NCBI RefSeq assembly: GCF_005780165.1
Contig: NZ_VAUV01000021.1
Location: 1-64,000 of the forward strand
Source: Phragmitibacter flavus
Lineage (GTDB): Bacteria; Verrucomicrobiota; Verrucomicrobiia; Verrucomicrobiales; Verrucomicrobiaceae
Reading direction: 5' to 3'
DNA length: 64,000 bases
Every line of letters starts with the position of its first letter. Within the stretch, counting starts at the first letter, position 1. Positions 6,436 through 20,883 of the stretch are shown piece after piece. Below the pieces are notes generated by a model. That model made no database searches and had not been told where the DNA came from. It saw only the letters and a list, made by a program, of their open reading frames with translations. A program made the position numbers and the translations under genes.

Positions 6436-7083
6436 CTACTTGCCGAGAAATTTCACCACCGCTTCGGTGCGGGATTGCACATGCAGTTTGCCGTAGATGG
6501 CATGCAGATGAGCACGCACCGTGCTGGTGCTGATGTTGAGTTGATCCGCAATTTCCTTGTATTGCAATCCCTTTGAAAGCTGGCCAAGAATCTCATTCTC
6601 GCGAGCCGTGAGGGTTTGCAGTTCGGGTGCCATCGTGCGACCAGGGTGAAAATAGGAAACCACCTTGCGGGCAATGTGCATCGACATCGGTGAACCACCC
6701 CGGTGGACTTCCTTCACCGCAGCGAGAATGTCCGCCGGGCGTGCGCGTTTCAGCATGTAGCCGCTGGCACCCGCGCGTAGAGAATCAAAAATGTTCTCCG
6801 TGTCATCATAAGTGGTGAGCATCAAAACGTGCAGGCCCGGCATCGCGGTCTTGAGCGCGGCGACGCACTCGATGCCGCTTCGTCCGGTGAGGTTGATGTC
6901 GGCCAGCAATACATCGGGCGGCAGCTTGGGCACTTCGATAATGGCCTGTTCGGCGCTGGGATAGGTGGCAATGCAGGTGAGGCCAGGTTCGCGGTTGATG
7001 AGTTTCTCCAAAGTTTCTCGGGTGACGCGGTCATCCTCAACAATGGAAACTTTGACGGAGGTGGAAGCGGTGGAAGCGTTCAT
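6436..7083 (-). CDS. NarL/FixJ-family response regulator
   Basis: A 215-residue two-domain regulator. The receiver domain (about 11-130) has the acidic triad E16-D17-D18, the phospho-acceptor D62 in LLADINLTG, LTTYDD, and the conserved lysine in GYMLKRA. The LuxR-type helix-turn-helix (about 150-212) reads LTARENEILGQLSKG, then KEIADQLNISTSTVRAHLHAIYGKL. Its start overlaps the stop of the upstream histidine kinase gene by four bases (ATGA), which makes them a translationally coupled two-component pair. Targets are not known; the divergent pseudopilin cassette is a natural candidate by position only. Confidence 0.95.
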   Translation of the reverse strand: MNASTASTSVKVSIVEDDRVTRETLEKLINREPGLTCIATYPSAEQAIIEVPKLPPDVLLADINLTGRSGIECVAALKTAMPGLHVLMLTTYDDTENIFDSLRAGASGYMLKRARPADILAAVKEVHRGGSPMSMHIARKVVSYFHPGRTMAPELQTLTARENEILGQLSKGLQYKEIADQLNISTSTVRAHLHAIYGKLHVQSRTEAVVKFLGK

Positions 7084-10043
7084 GATTTTGGCCAGGGAAG
7101 CGTGATGGTGATGGTGGTGCCGGTGCCCGGTATGCTGACAATTTCACAGTTTCCCTTCAAGGCAGCCGCGCGGGCGGTGAGATTTTTCAGACCGTTGCCA
7201 AGGGAGTCTAAGGCGATCGAGTGGTCGTCAAAACCCCGCCCATTGTCGCTTAAAACCGACAGCAAATGGTGGGGTTTGGGTTGCACACTCAACGTGATCT
7301 CGCTGGCACCGGAATGTTTTGCCGCATTGTTTTGGGCCTCTTGAATCATCAGGAAATAATGATGACGGAAGTCGGCATTGAGCGGTCGTTCAGCCACATT
7401 GTCCGGAAGTTCAAGCCGGCAACGGATGCCGGCTGCATCAAACATTTGCACGGCTTTCTGTCCCACATATTCCAGCAGGCTGCTGAGGTTGTCGTGGCGT
7501 GGATTCACGGCCCAAACAATTTCATCAAGATGAGTGACGGCTTCCCGGGATGTCTCCGCCAGCTGCCGCAGTTGCTCTTTGGGAGCCTGGCCCGCTGACT
7601 GTTCGTGGTCCGCCAGTTCCGCCAGCAGTGCAATTTGTGTGAGGCTGGCACCTATCTGATCATGCATGTCACGGGCGATTCGTGCCCGTTCACGTTGAAT
7701 GTCTGCTTCACGTTTGAAGGCTTCGGTTTGGCGACGTGTTCTCAGCTTTGAATAGCGATAGGCGGTCACCGCAGTGACCAGAAAAAACAAACCACCCAAA
7801 CCGAGTTGGAACCACAACGTCTGCCAGAAAAATGGCAATACTTGCAAGGACAAGGTGGCGTCCCGGCGACTGGACAAACCATCGTTGTTGGTGGCACGCG
7901 CTCTTAACTGATAGTGACCCGGGCGCAGACTTCCATAAGTGGCCGTGCGCGTCGCGCCACTGTCGATCCAGTCGTCATCCACCCCGTCCATCCGATACCA
8001 GACCGTCACACTTTGCGGTGCCACATAACTCATCGCCGCGAGATCGGCCCGCAAGGTGTTCACTCCAGGTTGGAGAGCCACTGACAGCTGCACCGGCACC
8101 TCACGACCATTCACGCGCAGCCCTTCGATGCTCACCGGCGGCGGAATCAAATTCGTGCCCGGCAACGTCGGGTCCGCCATCACGATGCCACTTCGCGAGG
8201 CAAACCACAGCCGGCCACTGGCCATCGCCATCGCATTGGGCTGGTAACCATTGTTCGCCTGGATGCTTGGCACCCCTTCATTGCGACCGTAGGCCGACGC
8301 GTGAACCTTCACCGCACGGCCATCCGCCACCGCGTTCAGCGATGACAGCGAAACCGCAAAAATGCCCCGGTCACCCGCGCCCCACAAGCGTCCTTGCTGA
8401 TCCAACACCAGCTGTGAAACCGCGTTGCTCCACAATCCATGCGAAGCGTTGACCATTGCCACCTTGCCATCCTTCAAACGTGCCAGTCCACCCCTCGCCG
8501 TGCCCATCCACATCGCGCCATCACGCGTCGTCAAAAACACCCGCACCGGCCCCGCCCCTTTCATCTCCGCAAAACGTTGGAACACCATCCGCCCTTTCTC
8601 CAGCCGGTAGAGTCCGCCATTTTGAGTCGCCGCCCAGACACGGTCAGACTGGTCATGGCCAATCGCCTGCACCTCGACGCCTCCGTTATCGATCACATAA
8701 GTGGTCCACTGTCCGGGCAGGCCACAGACCACGGCATCCCCACGCCCAAACCAAAGCTTGCCATCACGTGCTACACTCATCGCGCGGATGCGCGTCGGAG
8801 ACTCCTTTTTAGGCAGCCCATGAGTCTCAAACACCTCACCATTCCAGCGCACCAAACTCTGTTCACTGGTCGCAATCCACACATCCCCATTGCGACCCAC
8901 CGTCACGCTGGTGGCCAGCTTGCCCGGCCAGTGCAACCCGGCGATAAGATGTTTCCAACGTCGATCCCGTCGCAAAAAAAGTTCCCCCGTCTGCAACGCC
9001 ACCCACACATCGCCGCGCTGATCTTCACAAAACGCCCGGGCCGTCTGCTGCACCGGTGCATCCGGCTCATTCAGCATCGACAACACCCGCTGACGCAGCC
9101 GGCAAGCCCCGCCGCCACCCGTGCCCACCCACACATTGCCCTCGCGATCCTCACTCAGCCACCACACATCCTGGTTGGGCAGATTCACCCGTCTAAAATC
9201 CCCGTCCTCCCAGCAGTGCAGGCCATACCCAAACGTTCCAAACCACAAACGCCCCGTCCTGTCCTCATACAATGACGAGGCCCGCGTTCCCGGCGAATAA
9301 CCCGTCAGATCCGCCAGCTCCACCAGCCCATCGCGGGTCGAATACGCAAACAGCTTCTCGCCAATCCCCATCCACAAACCTCCCTGCTTCGCCGCACAGA
9401 TCACCGGACGATCCCCCGGAATCTCCAGCACCCGCTCAAACCTCCCGTTGCGCCATTTCGCCAGCGACTTATGGCCCGCCGCCCACATCTCGCCCTGGTT
9501 GTCCATTGTCAGCGACGACGCAAAGCTCAACCCCATCCCTTCCTCCACCGGTGCCTGCTCCAGCCGCTCGTTCACCACGCGAAAAATCGGCCCGTTCTCA
9601 TAACCAATCCACAGCACCCCTTCCGCGTCCTCCACCATCGCCACCACCCTCGCATCAAACCGGAGGTCACCAAGCGGCAACGCCAGATCCTGCTCCCCCT
9701 TTTTGAATCGCACCAGCACCTTGTTCACGATCACCCAAAGACACCCATCCCGCGTCGTAAAACCCCCCGCCACCGCCAGCCCTGAAGTTCCATGCGGGGC
9801 CAGATCAATCATCCCAAGCCGCAGCCCGTCCAGTCGCGCCAGCCCTCCGCGTGTGGCAAACATCATCGCCCCATCCGCCGCCTGCGACAGGCACACCACG
9901 TCATTGTTGGGCAACCCGTCATCCGTCTGCCACGCGTGGTGAATCCACGCCGCCTCCACGGCATGCAAACTCGTCATCGTCGTCTGGCAAACCAGCCCGA
10001 CCAGCCCCATCCCGACCAAACACGAATGCCAAAAATATCTCAT
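7080..10043 (-). CDS. Two-component-propeller sensor histidine kinase (HisKA_3 type)
   Basis: About 987 residues from the ATG at 10041-10043, which gives a clean signal peptide; an upstream in-frame ATG at 10097 would add 18 residues. The periplasmic part is a long beta-propeller of regulator repeats (DGLPNNDV, LWFGTFGYGL, VWVGTGGGG and similar), followed by a Y_Y_Y domain (WYRMDGVDDDWIDS). One transmembrane helix precedes the kinase. The HisKA_3 box is RIARDMHDQIGASLTQ with phospho-accepting H794, then the ATPase N-box EAQNNAAKHS, DNGRGFDD, and GNGLKNLTARA. Propeller kinases of this kind usually sense polysaccharide fragments, but the ligand here is unknown. The coding strand is unusually G-rich in the N-terminal half. 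Confidence 0.92.
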   Translation of the reverse strand: MRYFWHSCLVGMGLVGLVCQTTMTSLHAVEAAWIHHAWQTDDGLPNNDVVCLSQAADGAMMFATRGGLARLDGLRLGMIDLAPHGTSGLAVAGGFTTRDGCLWVIVNKVLVRFKKGEQDLALPLGDLRFDARVVAMVEDAEGVLWIGYENGPIFRVVNERLEQAPVEEGMGLSFASSLTMDNQGEMWAAGHKSLAKWRNGRFERVLEIPGDRPVICAAKQGGLWMGIGEKLFAYSTRDGLVELADLTGYSPGTRASSLYEDRTGRLWFGTFGYGLHCWEDGDFRRVNLPNQDVWWLSEDREGNVWVGTGGGGACRLRQRVLSMLNEPDAPVQQTARAFCEDQRGDVWVALQTGELFLRRDRRWKHLIAGLHWPGKLATSVTVGRNGDVWIATSEQSLVRWNGEVFETHGLPKKESPTRIRAMSVARDGKLWFGRGDAVVCGLPGQWTTYVIDNGGVEVQAIGHDQSDRVWAATQNGGLYRLEKGRMVFQRFAEMKGAGPVRVFLTTRDGAMWMGTARGGLARLKDGKVAMVNASHGLWSNAVSQLVLDQQGRLWGAGDRGIFAVSLSSLNAVADGRAVKVHASAYGRNEGVPSIQANNGYQPNAMAMASGRLWFASRSGIVMADPTLPGTNLIPPPVSIEGLRVNGREVPVQLSVALQPGVNTLRADLAAMSYVAPQSVTVWYRMDGVDDDWIDSGATRTATYGSLRPGHYQLRARATNNDGLSSRRDATLSLQVLPFFWQTLWFQLGLGGLFFLVTAVTAYRYSKLRTRRQTEAFKREADIQRERARIARDMHDQIGASLTQIALLAELADHEQSAGQAPKEQLRQLAETSREAVTHLDEIVWAVNPRHDNLSSLLEYVGQKAVQMFDAAGIRCRLELPDNVAERPLNADFRHHYFLMIQEAQNNAAKHSGASEITLSVQPKPHHLLSVLSDNGRGFDDHSIALDSLGNGLKNLTARAAALKGNCEIVSIPGTGTTITITLPWPKS

Positions 10044-10124
10044 GAACTCGAGCAGCAAAATCATTGTGCCCAACATCCATGGGCCAACGCAAGCCATTTG
10101 AGCGGAGCCACCCCCGAACGACTA

Positions 10125-10175: not shown

Positions 10176-10943
10176 ATGACATTGCCCATACAGCGTCAAC
10201 GGCCATCCACAAAATCCAGGCCAGCCCTTTCCCGGTCCCGCTCCGCCTTCACCCTCATTGAAGTCCTTACCGTCGTCGTCATCATCAGCATCCTCGTCGC
10301 GCTCTCCGCCCCCATCATCACCTCCATCAACGGTGCCAACACCGTCACCCGCAACGCCTACACCCTCACTGACACCCTCGACCAAGCCCGCTCCTACGCC
10401 ACCGCCAACAACACCTACACCTGGGTCGGCATCTTCGAGGAAAACGCCGACGCCCCCGGAACCCCAGGCATCGGTCGCATCATCCTCGGCATCTTCGCCT
10501 CTACCGACGGCTCAAAAATCTACGCCGACGGCACCCCAAGCCCCGGCCCGCTCGACCCCACCCGCCTGAAACAGATCGGCGAACTCATCCAACTCGAACA
10601 CACCGACCTTGTCACCCTCAGCAGCAGCGACATCCAGCGCGACACCGTTCCCGCCGCCATCCATCAAGTCGCCGAAGACACCTTCACCAGCCCCATCACC
10701 ATCACCCCGCCCCACCACACCGACCCGGCTACCGCCAGCTACACCTTTGCCAAACTCATCCAGTTCAGCCCCCTCGGAGACGCCAGCAAAATCGCCAGCT
10801 CACCCGTGCGCTGCATCGAGTTCGGCCTCCGACCCACCAAAGGCAACATCACCGACACCACCAGCAAAAACCTCGTCGCCGTCCAGCTCTCCGGCATCGG
10901 CGGTCAACCCAGTCTCCACCGTCCCCAACCATCCCAGCCATGA
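10176..10943 (+). CDS. Pseudopilin, Verru_Chthon cassette protein D (GspH-like position)
   Basis: A 255-residue protein with a short basic leader and the class III prepilin signature SAFTLIEVLTVVVIISILVA near residues 23-42. Cleavage would fall before F25, with alanine rather than the usual glycine at -1 and the conserved Glu at +5. The rest fits the pilin-like fold of GspH/minor pseudopilins, beginning with ITSINGANTVTRNAYTLTDTLDQAR. It is the first gene of a five-gene operon whose next start overlaps its stop by four bases. I assign it to the Verru_Chthon cassette D family from its leader, size and neighbours. The substrate moved by this machinery is unknown. Confidence 0.85.
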   Translation: MTLPIQRQRPSTKSRPALSRSRSAFTLIEVLTVVVIISILVALSAPIITSINGANTVTRNAYTLTDTLDQARSYATANNTYTWVGIFEENADAPGTPGIGRIILGIFASTDGSKIYADGTPSPGPLDPTRLKQIGELIQLEHTDLVTLSSSDIQRDTVPAAIHQVAEDTFTSPITITPPHHTDPATASYTFAKLIQFSPLGDASKIASSPVRCIEFGLRPTKGNITDTTSKNLVAVQLSGIGGQPSLHRPQPSQP

Positions 10944-11452
10944 AACCAAATTCGTTCTCCATATCCAGTCGAAAAAAAGCCTTCACACTCGTCGAAACCG
11001 TCCTCGCCCTCGGTGTTGCCGCCGTCAGCATGTCCGCCATCTTCGGCCTCCTGCCCGTCGGACTCAACTGCAACCAATCCTCCACCGAGCAAACCAGCGC
11101 CGCCAACCTCCTCACCGTCCTCGCCGCCGACCTGCGCAGCACCCCCGGCAGCACCAGCACCAGCGCCAGCACCGAAGCCGAAACCCACCGCTCCAACCTC
11201 TTTGAAATCGACCTTCCTGCCAAACCCACCGGCAGCACCGAACCCACCCAACAAACCCTCCACATCGGCGACGACCTCCAGCCCACCTCCGAGCTGTCGC
11301 TTGCCCGTTACCAGCTCAACCTATGGGTTGTCGCACCCGCCACCGACCGCGCCCCCACCACCGTTCGCGCCCTCATCACCTGGCCCGCCAACGCCACCTA
11401 TCAAAAAGCCATCGGCTCACTCGAAACCATGATCGCACTCGACCGCCACTGA
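10940..11452 (+). CDS. Pseudopilin, Verru_Chthon cassette protein B (GspI/PilV-like)
   Basis: The 170-residue product has a prepilin leader with cleavage site KKAFTLVETVLALGVAAVSM (about 12-31), again with Ala at -1 and Glu at +5. The segment ends in FGLLPVGLN, as in GspI/PilV-type minor pilins. The ATG overlaps the upstream stop (ATGA), so translation is coupled. The Thr/Ser/Ala-rich centre and the WVVAPATD segment are shared by cassette B proteins as I remember the family. It should act in the inner membrane/periplasm as a minor pseudopilin. Confidence 0.85.
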   Translation: MKPNSFSISSRKKAFTLVETVLALGVAAVSMSAIFGLLPVGLNCNQSSTEQTSAANLLTVLAADLRSTPGSTSTSASTEAETHRSNLFEIDLPAKPTGSTEPTQQTLHIGDDLQPTSELSLARYQLNLWVVAPATDRAPTTVRALITWPANATYQKAIGSLETMIALDRH

Positions 11453-11457
11453 TCCCC

Positions 11458-12384
11458 ATGAATCACCACCGGCCCGCATCCACTCATCGCCGCGCCTTCA
11501 CCCTGATTGAGCTGCTCATCGTCATGGCCATTCTCGGCATGCTCGTCCTCCTTATGTCGCAGCTCCTTAACGACACCCTCAGCGTCACCGGTCGCGGCAA
11601 CCAGCGCATCGATGCCGACAGCGAAGCCCGCCTCGTCCTCGACCGTATCGGCATCGACATCGCCCGCATGGTCAAACGTCCGGACATCGATTACTACCTG
11701 CAAAAGACCAGCGGCGATGACCAGCTCGCCTTCTTCAGCGAGTCCACCGGCTACTACCCCGACGGCATCGAAAGCGAAACCCCCAAAGGCACCGCGTCGC
11801 TCATCGGTTACCGCATCGAAAACCAAAAACTCGAACGCCTCAGCAAAGCCCTCATTTGGAACGGCGTCAACACCAGCACCCCCGGCGCCACCGGCATCTC
11901 CGCCCAAAACAAACCCATGATCTACGGCATCGGTGCCACCCCCGGCGAAGTCCTCCTCAACAGCTACACCATCAATGGCGGCGGCGGCAGCAGCATCACC
12001 ACCACCGGCAGCGCCAGCGACCCCGACTACCAGGTCATCGGCGAAAATGTCTTCCGCCTCGAGTTCTGCTACCTCATGAAAAACGGCACCCTTTCCGACA
12101 CCCCCTGGCTTGCCCCCAACACCACCATCAACGGCCTGCGCGACGTCGCCGCCATCATCGTCGCCATCGCCGTGCTCGACCCGGCCAGCCGTTCCACCCT
12201 CAACGCCAGCCAGCTCACCGCCGCCTCCGCCAAACTTCCCAACGTCGCCGGCACCACCCTCAGCTCACCACCTCTTCCCCTCTGGCAAACCCAGATCGAC
12301 AACAACGACCTCGACCTCCCCCGTTCCGCCGCCTCCCAAGTGCGCATCTACCAGCGCACCTACCATCTTGACGAAGCCCCCTGA
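11458..12384 (+). CDS. Pseudopilin, Verru_Chthon cassette protein C (GspJ/PilW-like)
   Basis: I place the start at the ATG 11458-11460, five bases after the previous stop; it gives MNHHRPASTHRRAFTLIELL, with the prepilin site A-FTLIE at about residues 14-18. Longer in-frame starts only add arginine-rich sequence read from the upstream gene. The 308-residue product continues VMAILGMLVLLMSQLLNDTL and then the GspJ-like DSEARLVLDRIGIDIARM. The C-terminal part has WLAPNTTINGLRDVAAIIVAIAVLD, as expected for proteins listing measured values. It belongs to the pseudopilin operon. Confidence 0.86.
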   Translation: MNHHRPASTHRRAFTLIELLIVMAILGMLVLLMSQLLNDTLSVTGRGNQRIDADSEARLVLDRIGIDIARMVKRPDIDYYLQKTSGDDQLAFFSESTGYYPDGIESETPKGTASLIGYRIENQKLERLSKALIWNGVNTSTPGATGISAQNKPMIYGIGATPGEVLLNSYTINGGGGSSITTTGSASDPDYQVIGENVFRLEFCYLMKNGTLSDTPWLAPNTTINGLRDVAAIIVAIAVLDPASRSTLNASQLTAASAKLPNVAGTTLSSPPLPLWQTQIDNNDLDLPRSAASQVRIYQRTYHLDEAP

Positions 12385-12396
12385 TTTCCCTCACGC

Positions 12397-15300
12397 ATGC
12401 ACCCACACCTTCCATCCATGAAAATCTGCACACCATCCCCATCCAAGCAAGGCATGGCCCTCGTCATCGTGCTCGCCTTCGTCGTCCTCCTCACCGGACT
12501 CGTCGTCGCCTTCCTTGCCCGCTCCGTGAACAACGAAAAAGTCGCCACCAACTACTCCCATCAAACCCGTTCCGACATCCTCGCCCGGAGCGCCCTCGAC
12601 TACATCATTACCGACCTCAAACAAGAAATCCACAACGGCTCCAACCTCGTTACCGTCGGCCCCGAAGACGCCTCATCAACCCTCTATCTCCCCCAAACCC
12701 CGGCCGACGCCATGGCCCAACGCAGCGGCCTGCCTGCCGATGACACCATCCCCAACCTCATCCGCCGCAGCGTGCGCGACGACACCCTTGTAGTTCCCAG
12801 CCGAGCCTCCGCCATCAACAGCAGCGAAGACGCCTCCATCGACGGCCGCACCATCACCCCTGCCCGTTGGAACCGCCACTACCTCATCCCCCGCTTCGAT
12901 GCCGCCACCAACACCGACACCACTCCCGATGCTGACACCGGATTCATCGCCCCTGACTGGGTCCTGCTCACCCGTAACGGCCCCGCCGTCCACACCAACC
13001 TCGGCAGCGGCCCCACCGCCCTCAACAACGCCGACAAAGACAACAGCAACTACGTCATCGGCCGTTACGCCTACGCCATCTACGACGAGGGCGGCCTTCT
13101 CGACCTCAACGCCGCCGGTTATCCTGAAGGGCTCCTTACCGACGTCAAAAGCCGCAAAAACAACCTCGCCCTCGCCGATCTAACTCGAATTCCCATCGAT
13201 AAAACAAAAACCACCTTCCTTTCCCAGGCCCAGATCAACCAGTTTGTCGGCTGGCGCAACTACGCCTCCTCCCAGCCCATCGGCGGCTTCGGTGCCTTCA
13301 CCTTTGATGCCGCCCGTGCCAAATACTGGCACAAACACTTTGTTTTGGAGAACCAGACCGGCTTCCTCAAAACCATCGCCCCCGAAGATGCCGTTCCGCC
13401 CCTCACCGACCAGGCCCTGCTCAGCCGCCAGCAGTTGATCCGGCTTTTTGGCTCATTGGACATCAGCCCCAACGCCCTGCAATACTTCGGCACCTTCAGC
13501 CGCACACTCGACCAACCCTCCTTCGCCCCCGATCCCAACCGGCCCAAAGTCCTGGCTGCAGCCAAGGGCGGGAATAGCGCGGCGGGATTGAATGCCGATG
13601 ATTTGATCAACCCCAGCTTCCTCACCACCAGAGTCGGTAGCACTTTTACCCGCAACAACGGAGAAACCGCCAAGTCCGGCGAACCCCTGGTGAAAAGACG
13701 CTTCGCCCTCAACCGCCTCGCCTGGCTCACCTATCAAGGGCCCAGCGCCACACGCAATACCTCCACGACCACCACCACGGGTGATGACGCCGACATCGGC
13801 TTGCTCAAACAACATGGAATTAGCGAAGAATTGCTCGAAGAGGGCACCGCCGAAAACATCAGAAAATACTTCGGGCTGACCTGGGATAACACCGATCATT
13901 GCTGGCAATACGACGTCCACAACGGCTCCTCCGGTGCGATCAAGAAGCTCGGCGACATTGCCCAGCTCTCCCCCGCCCGCGAACCCGATTTCTTCGAACT
14001 GCTCAAAGCCGCCATGCACGTCGGTTCGCTGGGCAAAGCACTGCTTCCCAGCGGTGGCGGCTCCATTGAGCCATACAGCTACAACCACTATGCAGAAAAC
14101 TCCGTTGACCTCCAGATTATCCAGATCGGAGCCAACATCATCAGCCAGTTCCAACCCTCGAACTACCCGCCCATCATTATCTTCAACGATGGAAGCGGAC
14201 ATGCTTCGATGCCCCGCAAAATCGCGGGTGTGACCAACTTGCCCTATCTGCAAAATCTCATGACCGGCGTGCTCCAGGTGCGCGCTCCCAACCCCCTGCC
14301 CAATAGCATGGGACCCGGTGCCACTTACCCCTCCGGAACCAAAATCATCGACCCCGGCGTGGGTGCCCTGATGATGCTTCCCGTCGTTTGGAATCCCCAC
14401 GACCCCGCCAGTTCCACCGGCGGGATTGGACCGACGCGCTTCCGTGTCGTCGCGGACAGCACCACGCCCGATCTACTGGACTCAAGCACGCGCACTCCCT
14501 ATTGTGTGTATGCCAACTCAGGGGGCAATTGGTCTTTCGACGCGGGGAACAACTCTCCACAAAGGGACTGGTATGCCGACTCGACCCGCACCGGCGCGCA
14601 AATCAGCCGCGCACTCACCGCTGACACTACCGCGATTGAGTTCTTGGTGCAGTCCGGCGGACTGCCGCTCTTTCCCGAGCCCGCCATGCTGGTTCGCCCT
14701 CGCACCATCACCGATCCCAACGGCAACAGCGTGCAAATTTCCCTCGGCGATGGGCACCTGATCAATACGGACAATGTGCTTAGAGATTTGCGCGTCTCCC
14801 CGGGAACCGCAATCAGCGGCCTGCCCAATTACTTTGCCAACGCGCTGAACATGAATCAACCCGGCCAGACACAAGATCCCGCAGGCACGGCCTATCTGGG
14901 TTTCTGTCTTGGCACCGTCCCACTCGCCTGGACCAAGGGCAGCGACGAGAGCACCACGGCTTACTCCGCAGCCAGAGACGGCGTTTTCTGGGGCAGCGTC
15001 AACCATCCCCTTCCCACCACCAGGGGATGCTACATGACGTATCGGGTGCAATATGAAAATCCCTTCAGCCCTGGAGACTGGATTACGTATGACACAAAAT
15101 ATGGCAAAGTCATGTTTGACCGGTGTCAATTCGGAGTTGGCACTCCCAGCTTGATTTGCGGCTTCAGGGGGGGCGGCCAAGGCGAGGGCCACTGGGCCAC
15201 TGCGACAGACCCGCGCAGCAGCCGCTTCGGACTATTCTGGAATGGAACGGCTTCTTGGGCGGGTAATTACACCCCGGTGGGAAGCATCGTCATACCGCTG

Positions 15301-16716
15301 CCAATCCCCGGCCCCGAATTGGCGATTTCGCATTATGGCGGCAGCAGCCCCCACGCAGCCGGATGGCTCAACCCGGCCAGCGCCACCCTCTACACCATCC
15401 GGCCTGACGCGCACGCAGGTTTTGGATTCATGAAATGCTGGTTGGATCACGCCACGAGTGCCAACGAAAACAGCGGCTGGATGGCATGGATTTCTGCCGA
15501 CGGCAAATCCTTTCCCGGCATCGCTCCGGGACTGCTCAGCCAGAACAACACCAGCGCCCACTACGTCCCCTCGGCTTACTTCGGTGCCGGACAGGGAAAT
15601 GACGCCCATGCACCCCACTATTTCGCGGACCCTGATGGGATGGTGAGACGCGCGATGGGCGGATTTGTCGCCGAAGGCAACTCAACCTCACCGGGTTATG
15701 AGGGCTGGGGCAATAAATACCCTTCCGCCAACACCACCGTGGGCCTGCCCATGGCCAGAGCTTTCGGCTGGGATTCCAGCACCTACCGGCCGCCCAACCC
15801 CAATCCTACCATCACCGAGCACAACGTCGCGACTCAAGCCACCAGTCAGGCACAGAGTCGGCCCTATTTCCTCAACCGGCCTTTCCGCAACGTGGGAGAA
15901 CTGGGCTACGTCTTCACGGACACACCCTGGCGCAACATTGATTTCTCAAACGCGGAAAGCGGCGGTGTCGCGCTGCTGGACGTGTTCTGCATCAGCGAAT
16001 CGGAGAACAACGACGGCCTCGTCGCTGGCAAGATCAATCTCAACACCCGCCAGATTCCCGTCCTGAAGGCGGTGCTGACCGAGGCCTATCTCGACCCTGC
16101 TCTGGCATCCAATGGCTTTGCAACCTCACGCATCGACGCGGAACACACCGCCGGGCTTGTGTCCCAGGCTCTCGTCGCCCGCACCAGCAGCACTGCCAGC
16201 GGCATGGGACCGCTGCGCAATCTCAGCGAGCTTGTCGGTAAACTTGGCGATAAAACAGGAATCACGCATCCTTCCGTCAAAGGCGTGTCCAAGGTGCCCC
16301 TATCCACCGCAAACGGCTTTTACGATGGCAAGCACTCCTACAGCGGCTTCAGCGATGCGGGATGGAACAACACCGACCAACGTCCCCGACAGACTGATCC
16401 GCCCACCGACATCTACTCCGCCTACATGAGTTCTGAGGCATTCAGCACCAACACCAACAATAGCGGCACCCGGGAGACCCTCAGCTACATCCATCGCTTC
16501 CGCGAGGCACCCATTCGTGCCCTGGCGGCCGCCGGACAAACGAGAACTTGGAACTTGATGATCGACGTCATCGCCCAGTCTGGCCGCTATCCCAAGTCCG
16601 CCACCAGTTTGAATCAGTTTCGCGCCGAAGGCGAACAACGTTACTGGGTCCATGTGGCGATTGATCGGCTCACTGGTGAAATCATCGACAAACAAATCGA
16701 AGTTGTAAAAGAATGA
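12397..16716 (+). CDS. Verru_Chthon cassette protein A (GspK/PilX-like large component)
   Basis: A 1439-residue protein with one N-terminal membrane helix (GMALVIVLAFVVLLTGLVVA), followed by the PilX/GspK-like DILARSALDYIITDLKQEI. A second ATG at 12418 (MKICTPSP) is an equally good start. The body is a long exported domain with no catalytic motif I recognise; its C-terminal part (FLNRPFRNVGELGYVFTDTP, GKINLNTRQIPVLKAVLTEA) recalls the GspK saddle region. Size and position after the three pilin-like genes match cassette A. Codon use changes inside the gene near 13.55 kb, from almost uniform C-ending codons to a balanced pattern. It probably caps the pseudopilus. Confidence 0.82.
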   Translation: MHPHLPSMKICTPSPSKQGMALVIVLAFVVLLTGLVVAFLARSVNNEKVATNYSHQTRSDILARSALDYIITDLKQEIHNGSNLVTVGPEDASSTLYLPQTPADAMAQRSGLPADDTIPNLIRRSVRDDTLVVPSRASAINSSEDASIDGRTITPARWNRHYLIPRFDAATNTDTTPDADTGFIAPDWVLLTRNGPAVHTNLGSGPTALNNADKDNSNYVIGRYAYAIYDEGGLLDLNAAGYPEGLLTDVKSRKNNLALADLTRIPIDKTKTTFLSQAQINQFVGWRNYASSQPIGGFGAFTFDAARAKYWHKHFVLENQTGFLKTIAPEDAVPPLTDQALLSRQQLIRLFGSLDISPNALQYFGTFSRTLDQPSFAPDPNRPKVLAAAKGGNSAAGLNADDLINPSFLTTRVGSTFTRNNGETAKSGEPLVKRRFALNRLAWLTYQGPSATRNTSTTTTTGDDADIGLLKQHGISEELLEEGTAENIRKYFGLTWDNTDHCWQYDVHNGSSGAIKKLGDIAQLSPAREPDFFELLKAAMHVGSLGKALLPSGGGSIEPYSYNHYAENSVDLQIIQIGANIISQFQPSNYPPIIIFNDGSGHASMPRKIAGVTNLPYLQNLMTGVLQVRAPNPLPNSMGPGATYPSGTKIIDPGVGALMMLPVVWNPHDPASSTGGIGPTRFRVVADSTTPDLLDSSTRTPYCVYANSGGNWSFDAGNNSPQRDWYADSTRTGAQISRALTADTTAIEFLVQSGGLPLFPEPAMLVRPRTITDPNGNSVQISLGDGHLINTDNVLRDLRVSPGTAISGLPNYFANALNMNQPGQTQDPAGTAYLGFCLGTVPLAWTKGSDESTTAYSAARDGVFWGSVNHPLPTTRGCYMTYRVQYENPFSPGDWITYDTKYGKVMFDRCQFGVGTPSLICGFRGGGQGEGHWATATDPRSSRFGLFWNGTASWAGNYTPVGSIVIPLPIPGPELAISHYGGSSPHAAGWLNPASATLYTIRPDAHAGFGFMKCWLDHATSANENSGWMAWISADGKSFPGIAPGLLSQNNTSAHYVPSAYFGAGQGNDAHAPHYFADPDGMVRRAMGGFVAEGNSTSPGYEGWGNKYPSANTTVGLPMARAFGWDSSTYRPPNPNPTITEHNVATQATSQAQSRPYFLNRPFRNVGELGYVFTDTPWRNIDFSNAESGGVALLDVFCISESENNDGLVAGKINLNTRQIPVLKAVLTEAYLDPALASNGFATSRIDAEHTAGLVSQALVARTSSTASGMGPLRNLSELVGKLGDKTGITHPSVKGVSKVPLSTANGFYDGKHSYSGFSDAGWNNTDQRPRQTDPPTDIYSAYMSSEAFSTNTNNSGTRETLSYIHRFREAPIRALAAAGQTRTWNLMIDVIAQSGRYPKSATSLNQFRAEGEQRYWVHVAIDRLTGEIIDKQIEVVKE

Positions 16717-17549
16717 ACCCGCGCACTCTCCTTCCACTCCTCTTCACCCTTGCGCTTGCGCTTCACGCGCGCGCCCAGGATCCCGCCACCCTGCCCCAGG
16801 GACCGCTGCTAAACCGGGCTCCGCAGTTTTCCCAATGGGTCATCACCACAAAACCTCTCGACGGCGCGAAACCCGCCGAAGCGCAAGCGGGCTCCACACC
16901 GCGGAATGACGACGGCACCACACGCCCGAAAACAACCTCTGTGACCAAAAACAACCAGTTGATCCATGAACAAACCGTCTATGCTGGAGGCGATAAAGTC
17001 GACATCTGGCGCATCGGCGGTCAGGCCCTGATGTCGGCCGCTGGCAAACCCTGGATGACCATTTCTTCGGTCGGCACTTCGTTCAACGCGACGGATTATC
17101 AAAAGGCGGACTTTGCCGGGTTCGACTGGATCGCGCCGGGCAACTACACTGGCATCAAAGAAGTCGGCGGAAGGAAGTGCCTCACCTTTAGCGGTAAGAC
17201 GATTTGTCTCGACCCCCAGGAAATCGATCTATTAAAAACGTCAGCGGAACAGCAGGTTTCCGTCATGGAAACGATGAAAAACGAGGAGGTTCGTCCCGGC
17301 GATCCTCCGCTGCCTGAGGCAAAACCCTTCCGCATGGAAGACTACCATGTGCAGGTCGCCGCTTACATTGATCTGGAAACCCGTTTGCCCGTCATGCTCC
17401 AATATGAACTGCCTGAGGGGCCTATGACGCGCACCTACCAGTTCCAGCCCAACGTCGATCGATTGAGCCTCCCATCCGAGGTGCAGGATGTGCTCAAGGG
17501 GGCCGCTGACCACCAAAAGAGCCTTAACGTCGGCCGCCCGCCAATCTGA
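16713..17549 (+). CDS. Exported protein of unknown family, fifth gene of the pseudopilin operon
   Basis: The 278-residue product has a clear signal peptide (MNPRTLLPLLFTLALALHARAQ) and no later membrane helix. Its start overlaps the cassette A stop by four bases (ATGA), so it belongs to the same operon. I see TTKPLDGAKPAEAQ, a tryptophan-rich stretch (VDIWRIGGQALMS), and a late segment (YIDLETRLPVMLQYE) reminiscent of outer-membrane lipoprotein-like beta folds, but I cannot name a family. It may be a periplasmic or surface partner of the pseudopilus. No terminator hairpin is visible right after it. Confidence 0.8.
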   Translation: MNPRTLLPLLFTLALALHARAQDPATLPQGPLLNRAPQFSQWVITTKPLDGAKPAEAQAGSTPRNDDGTTRPKTTSVTKNNQLIHEQTVYAGGDKVDIWRIGGQALMSAAGKPWMTISSVGTSFNATDYQKADFAGFDWIAPGNYTGIKEVGGRKCLTFSGKTICLDPQEIDLLKTSAEQQVSVMETMKNEEVRPGDPPLPEAKPFRMEDYHVQVAAYIDLETRLPVMLQYELPEGPMTRTYQFQPNVDRLSLPSEVQDVLKGAADHQKSLNVGRPPI

Positions 17550-17898: not shown

Positions 17899-20883
17899 AT
17901 GAAAAATCCAGCTTCCTCCATCAAACATACCCGCTGCTTGTGGCGCAAAACCCTGCTAACACTCGGCTTCACCGCCGCCAGCTCTCTCAGCACAATAACA
18001 GCTGCTGATTTCACTTGGCAAGGCAATCAGGATGCCCTCTGGAATAATGGAAATAACTGGGATCCGGCCGTTTTCCCAGACAACACGGACACCGCCATCT
18101 TTAACAACGATGGCAACAGTTTCACCATCCTTGACCTGGGAGGCGGCGCCTCCATCCTTAACATCACTTACGACACCACCGCCGCCGCTTACACCATCGG
18201 CGCAGGCGCAGTGGGCAGCCAGACGCTTACACTATCCAACACTGGTGCGATCACCAACAATGCCGCCGTTACCAACAGTCAGTTGATCAATGCCAATGTC
18301 GCCCTCGGCGGCGCATCCGCCACCATCGCCAACCACAGTGCTGCCAGCCTCCTCACCATCGCGGGAGCCGTGAGCGGCGCAGGCGGCTTCACCAAAGATG
18401 GCGTCGGCGCACTGACACTCAGTGGCCTTAACACCAACACCGGCGACACCACCCTCAACGCGGGCACCTTGAACCTCGACCACGCCGCCGCGCTGGGCAA
18501 TACCACTGCGGGAGCACTGATCATCAATGGCGGCACCATCAACAATACCAGCGGCGCGGCCATCACCACCACCACGGCGAAGGCGCAGACCTGGGCCGGT
18601 GATGTTACTTTCATTGGCAGCAACAATTTGAATTTCAACGGTGGCGTCGTCACCCTCACCGGCGCTGGTTCACGCACCGTGACGGTCAGCGCGGGCACGC
18701 TCGGCGTGGGTCGCATCACCAGCGCCAGCACCGGATTGAATGTCGCCGGCCCAGGCGTATTGGCCGTCACCACCAGCGCTGCCAGCACCATCGGCGGCAC
18801 ACTGGATGTCGCCACCGGCAGCACCCTGCGCTTCAATACCGGAGCCACCGGCCCACTCACGAATGACTTCATCGCCACCGGCCTGACTGGCGGAGGCATC
18901 ATCGAGAATGGTGGAGGCGTGGAACGCTGGCTGTTCATCAACAACGCCGTGGACAACACCTTCACCGGCATACTACAAAACGGTGCTGCAGGCGGCATGG
19001 GCTTAAACAAGGGCGGTGTGGGAACGCTCACTCTCACCGGGGCAAACACCCATAGCGGTGTCACCACCGTGCGCCTTGGCAACCTCAATCTCAGTGCCAC
19101 CGGCTCGATCACTGCCAGCAGCAGCACCGGCAGCATCGTGGTGAATGCCGCAACAGGCACCACGGCGACTATGACGGTGGATGGAGGCAGCATCCTGGTG
19201 GGGGCGAACAATGCTGGAAACGCATCCATTATCGTGGGCAATGTCAATGGTGGTGCAGGCATTTTCAACGTGGGAGCTGGATCCGATGTGACCACCGGCG
19301 GAGTCACTGGCCCCGCAAGAGAAATACACGTTGGCCGCGGCGGTTTTGGCACCGCCAACATCACGGGTGGCACGGTCACGGTCGGAGGATTCATTGTCGG
19401 CGGCATCGCCACGAACGGAGTGGGCATCTGGAATGTCAGCGGCGGGTCCGTCTCCGTTGGCACAAACGGCAACTGGGGTGCCACTTTTGGTGCCAGCGGA
19501 GGCACCACCGGTGTGCTGAACCTCACTGGAGGAACCTTCAACAACACCCATACGGGAACGAGCGCCGGCTTGTGGGTCGGCGAAAACGGCAGGGCAGAGT
19601 TCAACATTTCCGGCACTGGACAGGCCAATCTGGGCGGCAACACCTCCAACGGAAACTCCGGCCTCGTCATCGGCAAGAACAACGGTGCGGCAGGCATCGT
19701 CAACCTCGGTGCCGTCGGCGCAGGTGGCGGCACCATCAGCACCACCATGGTTTCCCACACCGGCAACGGCACCGGCAGGCTCAACTTTCACGGCGGCACC
19801 TTGCAGGCCAGGACAGGCGCAGCCGCGAACTTCATGTCCGGACTCACCAGCGCCCACGTCTATGCTGAAGGCGGCACCATTGATAACAACGGGCAGGCCA
19901 TCACCATCGCCCAAGCCCTGCTTGCCCCGACCGGTTTCGGCATCAATGCGCTGGATACCACCGGACTGGCCACCACCGGCTACACCACCGCGCCCCTCGT
20001 CACCATCACCGGCGGCACCGGCACCGCTGCCACCGCCAATGCCACCGTCGATGCCAGCGGCAACCTCACCGGCTTCATCATCACCAACCCCGGCTCTGAT
20101 TACACCGCAGGCGACACCCTCACCGTGACCCTCTCCGGCGGCGGAAAAAACACCACTTCCGCCAGCACCACCTCCGCCACCCTCAGCGAAAACGCAGGTG
20201 GCGGCATGACCTACATCGGCACCGGCACCACCACCCTCACCGCTGCAAACACCTACACCGGGGGCACCATCATCACCCAAGGTCGCCTGTTGGCCAATAA
20301 CACCACCGGCTCGGCCACGGGCACCGGAAGTGTCAGCGTAACTTCTGGAGCCACGTTGGGCGGAACCGGTAGCATTAGTGGCGGCCGCACGGCCAACATC
20401 ACGCTTGGTGCCGGGAGTTTTCTCGCGGTTGGCAACACCCACGGTGCAGGCGGCCTCGCAGAAACCTTGGAACTTGGCACGGGCGGCACCATCACCAGCA
20501 CCGCCGACACCACTTTCCAGTTTGATCTCATGGGCGCTGGCACCGCCGGTGCTGCCCCTGCCGCGTATAACTTCAACAACGACTATCTCGACTTCACCAC
20601 TGCCGCTGCAATAGATATCCTTGGCGTCATTCAACTCTCGGCCGCAGATACCAGTTCATGGCTGCCTGAAGAACAAATCTGGAAACTCATCGACTGGACC
20701 GGCATTACCGATTTGGGCGCATCGATGGACCTGGTCTACTCCGGTATCATCGACAACTACGTGCTTAGTTCCTTCACTGACGACAGTGGTTTTTACATTA
20801 GGGCATCCCTGGTCCCTGAACCATCCCGTGTGTTGCTGATGATGGCCGGGCTTTGTCTGCTTGGACTGCGCCGCAAACGTTGA
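17899..20883 (+). CDS. Autotransporter-associated beta-strand repeat protein with PEP-CTERM
   Basis: A 994-residue exported protein. After a signal peptide (cleavage around AADFTW, residues 36-40) come Gly/Thr/Asn-rich beta-helix repeats. Several fit the autotransporter-associated repeat, such as GVGALTLSGLNTNTGDTTLN, GVGTLTLTGANTHSGVTTVR and GTTTLTAANTYTGGTIITQG. The middle also has repeated units of the type GTANITGGTVTVGGFIVGG. The C-terminus is a PEP-CTERM sorting tag: VPEPSRVLLMMAGLCLLGLR followed by RKR. There is no autotransporter barrel domain, so anchoring would rely on an exosortase-like system not seen in this window. It is likely a surface or matrix protein. Confidence 0.9.
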   Translation: MKNPASSIKHTRCLWRKTLLTLGFTAASSLSTITAADFTWQGNQDALWNNGNNWDPAVFPDNTDTAIFNNDGNSFTILDLGGGASILNITYDTTAAAYTIGAGAVGSQTLTLSNTGAITNNAAVTNSQLINANVALGGASATIANHSAASLLTIAGAVSGAGGFTKDGVGALTLSGLNTNTGDTTLNAGTLNLDHAAALGNTTAGALIINGGTINNTSGAAITTTTAKAQTWAGDVTFIGSNNLNFNGGVVTLTGAGSRTVTVSAGTLGVGRITSASTGLNVAGPGVLAVTTSAASTIGGTLDVATGSTLRFNTGATGPLTNDFIATGLTGGGIIENGGGVERWLFINNAVDNTFTGILQNGAAGGMGLNKGGVGTLTLTGANTHSGVTTVRLGNLNLSATGSITASSSTGSIVVNAATGTTATMTVDGGSILVGANNAGNASIIVGNVNGGAGIFNVGAGSDVTTGGVTGPAREIHVGRGGFGTANITGGTVTVGGFIVGGIATNGVGIWNVSGGSVSVGTNGNWGATFGASGGTTGVLNLTGGTFNNTHTGTSAGLWVGENGRAEFNISGTGQANLGGNTSNGNSGLVIGKNNGAAGIVNLGAVGAGGGTISTTMVSHTGNGTGRLNFHGGTLQARTGAAANFMSGLTSAHVYAEGGTIDNNGQAITIAQALLAPTGFGINALDTTGLATTGYTTAPLVTITGGTGTAATANATVDASGNLTGFIITNPGSDYTAGDTLTVTLSGGGKNTTSASTTSATLSENAGGGMTYIGTGTTTLTAANTYTGGTIITQGRLLANNTTGSATGTGSVSVTSGATLGGTGSISGGRTANITLGAGSFLAVGNTHGAGGLAETLELGTGGTITSTADTTFQFDLMGAGTAGAAPAAYNFNNDYLDFTTAAAIDILGVIQLSAADTSSWLPEEQIWKLIDWTGITDLGASMDLVYSGIIDNYVLSSFTDDSGFYIRASLVPEPSRVLLMMAGLCLLGLRRKR

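Follow-up and report, generated by a model that had tools for sequence, protein, structure and literature searches.

A cassette of five closely packed genes, at positions 10176-17549 of the 64,000 nucleotides of Phragmitibacter flavus analysed here (contig NZ_VAUV01000021.1, positions 1 to 64,000; hereafter the window), probably encodes an alternative pseudopilus tip of the GspH-I-J-K type known from type II secretion systems (T2SS), together with a LolA-like helper, for a machine encoded elsewhere in the genome. We put the probability of this reading at about 0.6. The genes follow the order D-B-C-A plus a fifth gene, with 4-bp overlaps at the D/B and A/fifth junctions, and every frame lies where an earlier interpretation made without database searches (the sequence-only reading) had placed it, including the overlapping fifth gene. 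The results that bear on the function of the cassette are its gene order, its leaders, the profile relationships of its proteins, the recurrence of the fifth gene, the fold class of the model of the fifth protein, the placement of machine genes, and the adjacency of genes for PEP-CTERM proteins.

The proteins encoded by D, B and C, the candidate H-, I- and J-type proteins, each carry a prepilin-type N-terminal leader of the form A-F-T-L-x-E, in agreement with the sequence-only reading, and the leader of A is G-M. For B, the Pfam N_methyl score is 18.9 against a cut-off of 21.2 when the protein is searched singly, and lies above the cut-off in the genome search. The alanine preceding phenylalanine had been taken as a distinguishing mark, a suggestion that has to be abandoned. 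Among 40 leaders of one pattern from the window and loci L001-L017, residue -1 is Ala in 19 and Gly in 21, and Gly occupies this position in D, B and C of Verrucomicrobium sp. BvORR034 and BvORR106. Thus, Ala at -1 is about as common as Gly, and is ruled out as a marker of the cassette.

In NCBIfam, the best family for D, B, C and A is Verru_Chthon D, B, C and A, respectively (E 3e-10, 7e-10, 2e-8 and 8e-7), with matches that cover only the N-terminal 60-70 residues of each protein, and the four gene types occur together as in a Verru_Chthon cassette. Beyond these families, the first match of D is ComGD, followed by GspH, while B yields weak matches to ComGF, ComGE and PilV (E 0.005-0.011) and no GspI match listed in NCBIfam. 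The match of C to GspJ (E 1e-5) spans profile positions 2-125 of 192, and so extends past the helix. For aligned family members, all five D proteins match TIGR02596 and GspH, with GspG and others also matched via the helix; B members match PilV in five of five cases and GspI in three; and four of the five C members match GspJ. On these matches, the four proteins are divergent relatives of the Verru_Chthon proteins, with a weaker likeness to GspH, PilV/GspI, GspJ and GspK.

Gene A encodes the largest of the four proteins. GspK lacks the glutamate at position 5 (Glu5) of the mature protein, and Glu5 is absent both from A and from our GspK alignment, as befits a K-type protein. Window A matches GspK in NCBIfam (E 3e-6), as do five of the six aligned A rows; TIGR02600 is also matched by five of six (best E 2.2e-8), the sixth being a contig-edge fragment that lacks the N-terminus. 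A likeness beyond the N-terminal helix is apparent when a 12-protein A profile is compared with a 12-protein GspK profile from related genomes using hhalign, for which all E-values are single-pair values. Residues ~1080-1250 of A, counted from the leader Gly and spanning the motif NRPFR...GKINLN, match GspK 140-301 with a pairwise E of 2.8e-7 and a probability of 93%. When 12 overlapping A segments were each compared with either half of GspK, matches were confined to the three segments over this motif (E 2.8e-7 to 1.1e-6 among the 24 comparisons), the next best value being 0.015 and the best reversed-GspK control 0.056. Against whole GspK the region gives 4.4e-6, and the N-terminal helix of A gives 3e-4. 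The GspK set was drawn from frames at 14 of 30 loci, with L061 and L068 dropped as misread, and the A-subfamily alignment of 12 sequences includes an untrimmed leader at L042. The C-terminal region of A therefore appears GspK-like beyond the helix, as judged by profile and for that half of GspK only.

Several hundred residues between the helix and the GspK-like part of A have no match, no T2SSK Pfam match is listed for window A, and a sequence search of the PDB returned chance-level matches only (E 0.44). The A proteins of the five-gene form are distantly related to the other A proteins of the genome over 223 aligned columns (pairwise E 3.6e-14), and the match of these other A proteins to GspK is limited to the N-terminal helix (E 8.6e-6). 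Their alignment holds 13 of the 14 proteins, L009 being left out, and includes untrimmed or wrongly trimmed leaders at L002, L006 and L016. A DDE[TS]SK[IVL]N motif occurs in 9 of the 14, and G-x-[IV]-N-x-N is found near the C-terminus of all 14. In none of 38 relative genomes is the GspK cut-off passed, and the ordinary GspK matches in relatives are frames of mostly 310-510 amino acids, as compared to 1432 for A.

The fifth gene was found in ten loci of nine genomes, each time directly after a homologue of A: the window, Chthoniobacter flavus (L026), metagenome-assembled genomes of a Spartobacteria member (L028) and of Phragmitibacter (L027), Verrucomicrobium sp. BvORR034 (L029) and BvORR106 (L030), genome G339 twice (L037, L038), G109 (L039) and G359 (L040). 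D-B-C is seen in nine of the ten loci, the tenth being cut by a contig edge. The 4-bp overlap of D and B recurs in all five loci measured, while A and the fifth gene overlap by 4 bp at seven of the ten loci and by 8 bp at another, and are separated by a 3-bp gap at the remaining two. The five-gene arrangement is not a chance one, since the same gene order recurs in genomes from further families and orders of the phylum. Homologues of the fifth gene were found in 3 of 37 other relatives searched, at five loci in the genome collection (three of these on the same contigs), and, across the phylum, in 5 of 387 genomes, the window genome included. The 387-genome searches scored at most two candidates per genome for A and at most six for the fifth gene, and absences in them are weak for this reason. 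Within the window genome, a profile search finds the fifth gene once, beside window A, among the best 6 of 21 candidates. TIGR02597, the number of which falls between those of the cassette models, was considered as a family for the fifth gene and rejected; its lone match in the genome lies on contig C4, which has no counted cassette. In C. flavus and Phragmitibacter, the fifth gene is followed by a similar protein of ~516-519 amino acids by frame (L026 10705-12261, L027 2699-4246), for which no NCBIfam match was found at L026.

The sequence-only reading had regarded the fifth gene as an exported protein that could not be placed. The protein has no sequence match in NCBIfam or the PDB, and Pfam gives no match to the LolA/RseB/LprG superfamily, the lone signal being an unrelated weak VIR_N match in one of six members (E 0.017). 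Its AlphaFold model, by comparison with known structures, now gives it a fold class. Foldseek matches the model to LprG (E 1.2e-6) and RseB (8e-6), with LppX and LolA also matched, and VIA-align Z values are 12.4 for 2yzy, 12.1 for an ependymin-related structure, 11.2 for RseB, 10.9 for VioE and 10.3 for LprG. The model shows the half-barrel of the LolA/RseB/LprG superfamily. The protein is thus most likely a half-barrel of this type with a signal-peptide-like start, the latter judged by eye, as is the lack of a lipobox in the window protein. The fold of the model suggests a role as a periplasmic carrier, and we infer both the export of the protein and the nature of its ligand. PilY1 as an identity for the fifth gene is unsupported, there being no such Pfam match and the model being a small half-barrel.

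At E <= 0.001, the window contig yielded neither a further prepilin leader nor a T2SSE ATPase or a secretin. The machine is therefore not nearby, as the sequence-only reading had noted of the ATPase, secretin and main pilin. Machine genes are present elsewhere in the genome, which has nine T2SSE matches above the cut-off and six secretins in total. For instance, a run of T2SS genes at C9:255-275 kb encodes an ATPase, T2SSF, T2SSG, a second prepilin, T2SSK and a secretin, all above Pfam cut-offs, together with J-, PilN/L- and M-like matches below cut-offs and a short gene without a match at the I position. Two more GspK-like genes, of ordinary length and below the GspK cut-off, are found at C5:111 kb and C9:51 kb. 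At least 15 cassettes are recognised in the genome by TIGR02600. Two of these, L003 (C2:311-315 kb) and L012 (C9:285-289 kb), are full-length A genes for which a search with the window proteins as queries found no neighbouring homologue of B, C or D. A divergent D-B-C-A set with a weak TIGR02600 match (L009 5110-11154; C6:75-81 kb) is preceded by what appears by eye to be a GspG-like prepilin, and may carry its own main pseudopilin. Genes at these loci of the genome were called by a crude script that missed some of them.

The cassettes of this genome lie close to genes for PEP-CTERM proteins. A PEP-CTERM frame is found within 1 kb of 8 of the 15 cassettes (7 of 14 if the window cassette is set aside), whereas random placement gives a mean of 0.32 and never reached eight in 4000 trials; sizes of some contigs were estimated for this test, which used hand-entered cassette spans and PEP-CTERM coordinates. 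At least seven of these eight frames carry beta-strand repeats. In genome G011, with 11 giant A genes among the matches listed, a PEP-CTERM frame lies within 3 kb of five (null 0.31, 0 of 4000 trials) and within 1 kb of three. Candidates scored for PEP-CTERM were 150 of 220 in the window genome and 150 of 156 in G011, and for beta-repeats 150 of 360. Among the ten five-gene loci, a PEP-CTERM gene is confirmed within ~2 kb at five, namely the window, L026, L029, L030 and L028, those at L029 and L030 having been scanned on the same contigs as L023 and L024. The neighbour at L037 is a beta-repeat gene without PEP-CTERM, and no PEP-CTERM gene is confirmed at L027, L038, L039 or L040, where neighbours were read and no profile scan was made. 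L042, a cassette of the subfamily without the fifth gene, adjoins two PEP-CTERM genes. Since cassettes stand beside surface-protein genes more often than expected by chance, each tip may serve its own cargo.

Further observations concern the same neighbourhoods. At L004 (2-6940; C2), a large beta-repeat PEP-CTERM gene is no further than ~1.5 kb from a T2SSE ATPase match, and at L007 (326-3706; C5) a giant GspK-like frame that is not matched by TIGR02600 lies ~1.3 kb from a PEP-CTERM gene; on these grounds, the link to PEP-CTERM proteins may reach past the counted cassettes. At L011 (8458-14574; C8:143.5-149.6 kb), a beta-repeat PEP-CTERM protein and the next A share one stop-free frame, either a natural fusion or the result of a lost stop codon.

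A number of results weigh against the interpretation of the cassette as an alternative tip set. The curated Verru_Chthon cut-offs are missed by D (40.5 of 70 bits), B (39.3 of 51.4), C (34 of 256.5) and A (27.4 of 332.3), as are the NCBIfam cut-offs for GspH (25.5 of 80), GspJ (25.5 of 64.85) and GspK (26.8 of 130), and the prepilin helix common to all four proteins could explain much of their family signal. The first half of GspK is unmatched in the A profile (E 0.03). The structure prediction suggested for the four proteins by the sequence-only reading was made for A only, and yielded no usable fold: a 1200-residue fragment of the BvORR106 relative, modelled because window A is over the length limit, has a predicted local distance difference test score (pLDDT) of 30, and this low-confidence model was kept out of the fold search. 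The proposed H-I-J-K-like set is nevertheless upheld by the GspH, GspJ and GspK matches, by the PilV and GspI matches across B members, and by an A without Glu5 and with a GspK-like C-terminus. For the fifth protein, the mean pLDDT is 61.7 (six sequences), the top Foldseek rows have a low TM-score (0.34 by query, 0.42 by target) and a root-mean-square deviation near 10, and the ependymin-related and VioE structures match the model about equally well. The expectation that the fifth gene would accompany other cassettes was borne out after A in nine further loci of the same subtype, but not beside the other 14 cassettes of the genome (frames >=70 amino acids, L001-L017), nor next to A at L041, L042 or L043; these absences rule it out as a general cassette component. 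Similarly, of the nine clearly related A loci found via A in the 387 genomes, six carry the fifth gene and three do not. With regard to cargo, none of the PEP-CTERM genes listed lies within 3 kb of the other 7 of the 15 cassettes, none is confirmed within ~2 kb at five of the ten loci with the five-gene form, the window candidate does not come out as a predicted lipoprotein, and the use of T2SS by PEP-CTERM proteins is putative only.

A different possibility, which we regard as somewhat unlikely, is that the cassette tips a type IV pilus active in adhesion or DNA uptake, with the extra region of A as a PilY1-like adhesin and the PEP-CTERM neighbours as mere co-residents of an island. In agreement with this view, B members are nearer to PilV than to GspI, the best general match of D is ComGD, and the size of A would be sufficient for an adhesin. 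A same-subtype D-B-C-A set without the fifth gene (L043 8694-15706; G049:C1) also lies ~1 kb from a PilB/GspE-type ATPase gene, from which it is separated by a single 308-amino-acid frame; the type of this ATPase is ambiguous because its scores for PilB (630 bits) and GspE (618 bits) are close and both below cut-off, and its proximity also counts in favour of the secretion-tip reading. However, A is GspK-like by profile, the match of C to GspJ extends past the helix, and two genomes show a strong link to PEP-CTERM genes.

For the fifth protein, an improbable alternative to a carrier is an RseB-like sensor that controls how the envelope responds when the tip is assembled. The structural matches of the model include RseB and MucB, and a sensor kinase and response regulator adjoin the window cassette, but LprG, LppX and LolA match about equally well. 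That the cassette is an ordinary, drifting and highly diverged Verru_Chthon copy, with a periplasmic housekeeping gene as a passenger, is very improbable: scores under the curated cut-offs and the many paralogous cassettes of the genome would fit, whereas the divergent five-gene form persists with open frames and near-constant junctions in nine genomes of several families, and the fifth gene, so far as the candidates scored in this genome go, occurs once, beside A.

If the cassette is indeed an alternative tip set, D-B-C-A would provide the minor pseudopilins for a T2SS machine, or for that of a related type IV filament, with its genes at another place in the genome. In Pseudomonas, as the available text of the study describes, four minor pseudopilins form the tip, with the GspK homologue topmost and critical for substrate recognition and binding (PMC6211770), and it is by analogy with this tip that each cassette is viewed as an alternative tip for a distant machine. 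D, B and C would prime and stack the tip, and A, as a GspK with several hundred extra residues, would cap it, the extra region forming a recognition head. Translation of the fifth gene is apparently coupled to that of A, and its product would be a periplasmic half-barrel that carries or chaperones some hydrophobic part of either cargo or tip. The adjacent beta-repeat PEP-CTERM protein (17899-20883) would be the likely cargo, and by extension each cassette would be paired with its PEP-CTERM neighbour. Such a set would function as a tip in trans on a shared machine, with its own cargo specificity and with a carrier function for the fifth protein. A broader and more tentative proposal, possible but short of even odds, is that Verrucomicrobia possess one or a few T2SS machines and many interchangeable, cargo-coded tips, with a giant GspK head for each PEP-CTERM neighbour and a soluble LolA-like carrier added in the five-gene subtype.

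The features of the cassette and its surroundings are collected in Table 1. Pairs of HisKA_3 and LuxR-type genes also directly adjoin cassettes on C5 (L006) and C8 (L011) of the same genome.

Table 1. Genes of the five-gene cassette and neighbouring genes in the window
Feature	Position	Strand	Description
Gene D	10176-10943	+	GspH-like minor pseudopilin; leader S-A/FTLIEV (slash, cleavage site); relative of Verru_Chthon D (TIGR02596)
Gene B	10940-11452	+	PilV/GspI-like minor pseudopilin; relative of Verru_Chthon B (TIGR02598)
Gene C	11458-12384	+	GspJ-like minor pseudopilin; relative of Verru_Chthon C (TIGR02599)
Gene A	12418-16716 (alternative ATG 12397)	+	Giant GspK-like protein; 1432 amino acids from ATG 12418; leader G/MALVIVLAF, without Glu5
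Fifth gene	16713-17549	+	278 amino acids; LolA/RseB/LprG-like half-barrel by model; signal-peptide-like N-terminus, judged by eye
Putative cargo gene	17899-20883	+	994-amino-acid beta-strand-repeat protein with PEP-CTERM sorting signal; TIGR02601 and TIGR02595 above cut-offs
Putative regulator: sensor kinase	7080-10097	-	Reg_prop, Y_Y_Y, HisKA_3, HATPase; divergent; 78 bp from gene D
Putative regulator: LuxR-type response regulator	6436-7083	-	

To our knowledge, how T2SS choose their cargo is still open. The window genome has at least 15 A-type cassettes, and for 8 of them a putative cargo gene is no more than 1 kb away. Swaps between such natural pairs of tip and cargo would make recognition by the tip directly testable. 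The cassettes are also a possible handle on the route of PEP-CTERM proteins to the surface. Sixty-five such proteins are reported for Verrucomicrobium spinosum, in a paper the available text of which does not use the word "cassette" (PMC1569441), and the available text of a study of the Akkermansia outer-membrane proteome does not mention "type II secretion" (PMC4960237). No publication on Verru_Chthon-type cassettes was found among the matches listed in the literature searched, nor one that pairs a LolA-like protein with a pseudopilin set. According to the accessible text of a study on GspN, this accessory T2SS subunit is needed for surface display of lipoprotein, and not of soluble, cargo, and its authors suggest the possible involvement of a soluble LolA-like chaperone (PMC12802150). 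A protein with a LolA-type fold by model that is tied to a pseudopilin set would be a natural candidate for the chaperone that these authors postulate.

In comparison with known systems, the window cassette shares its four gene types, and the best family of each protein, with the Verru_Chthon cassettes (TIGR02600, TIGR02598, TIGR02599 and TIGR02596), and differs from them in scoring below all four cut-offs, in its fifth gene, and in the C-terminal motif NRPFR...GKINLN of the five-gene A proteins, where 8 of the 14 other A proteins have STAGK[IV]N. With the GspH-I-J-K set of T2SS, for instance XcpU-V-W-X, it has in common the gene order, the prepilin leaders, and a last protein that is K-like, lacks Glu5 and resembles GspK in its C-terminal region; unlike that set, it has a giant A, lies outside a machine operon, and has a LolA-like gene after K in place of GspL. 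Type IV pili have a minor pilin operon, fimU-pilV-pilW-pilX-pilY1, in which four minor pilins are likewise followed by a fifth envelope protein. Window B is PilV-like, but the fifth protein is a 278-amino-acid half-barrel by model and not a large PilY1. The fifth protein shares its fold class, again by model, with LolA/LolB, RseB/MucB and LprG/LppX, and differs from them in having no sequence-family match and in being tied to a pseudopilin cassette. It would resemble GspN/PulN in being periplasmic and tied to T2SS; GspN, in the account available of it, has a predicted hydrophobic groove and is needed for part of the cargo, and belongs to the AsmA-like beta-taco proteins and to the machine operon, whereas the fifth protein is a half-barrel by model and belongs to a separate tip cassette. 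Because the window set misses the curated cut-offs of both the T2SS tip and the Verru_Chthon families, it is a variant and not a member of either, and is best compared to a minor-pseudopilin tip set of T2SS or type IV pili that is a sister of the Verru_Chthon cassettes.

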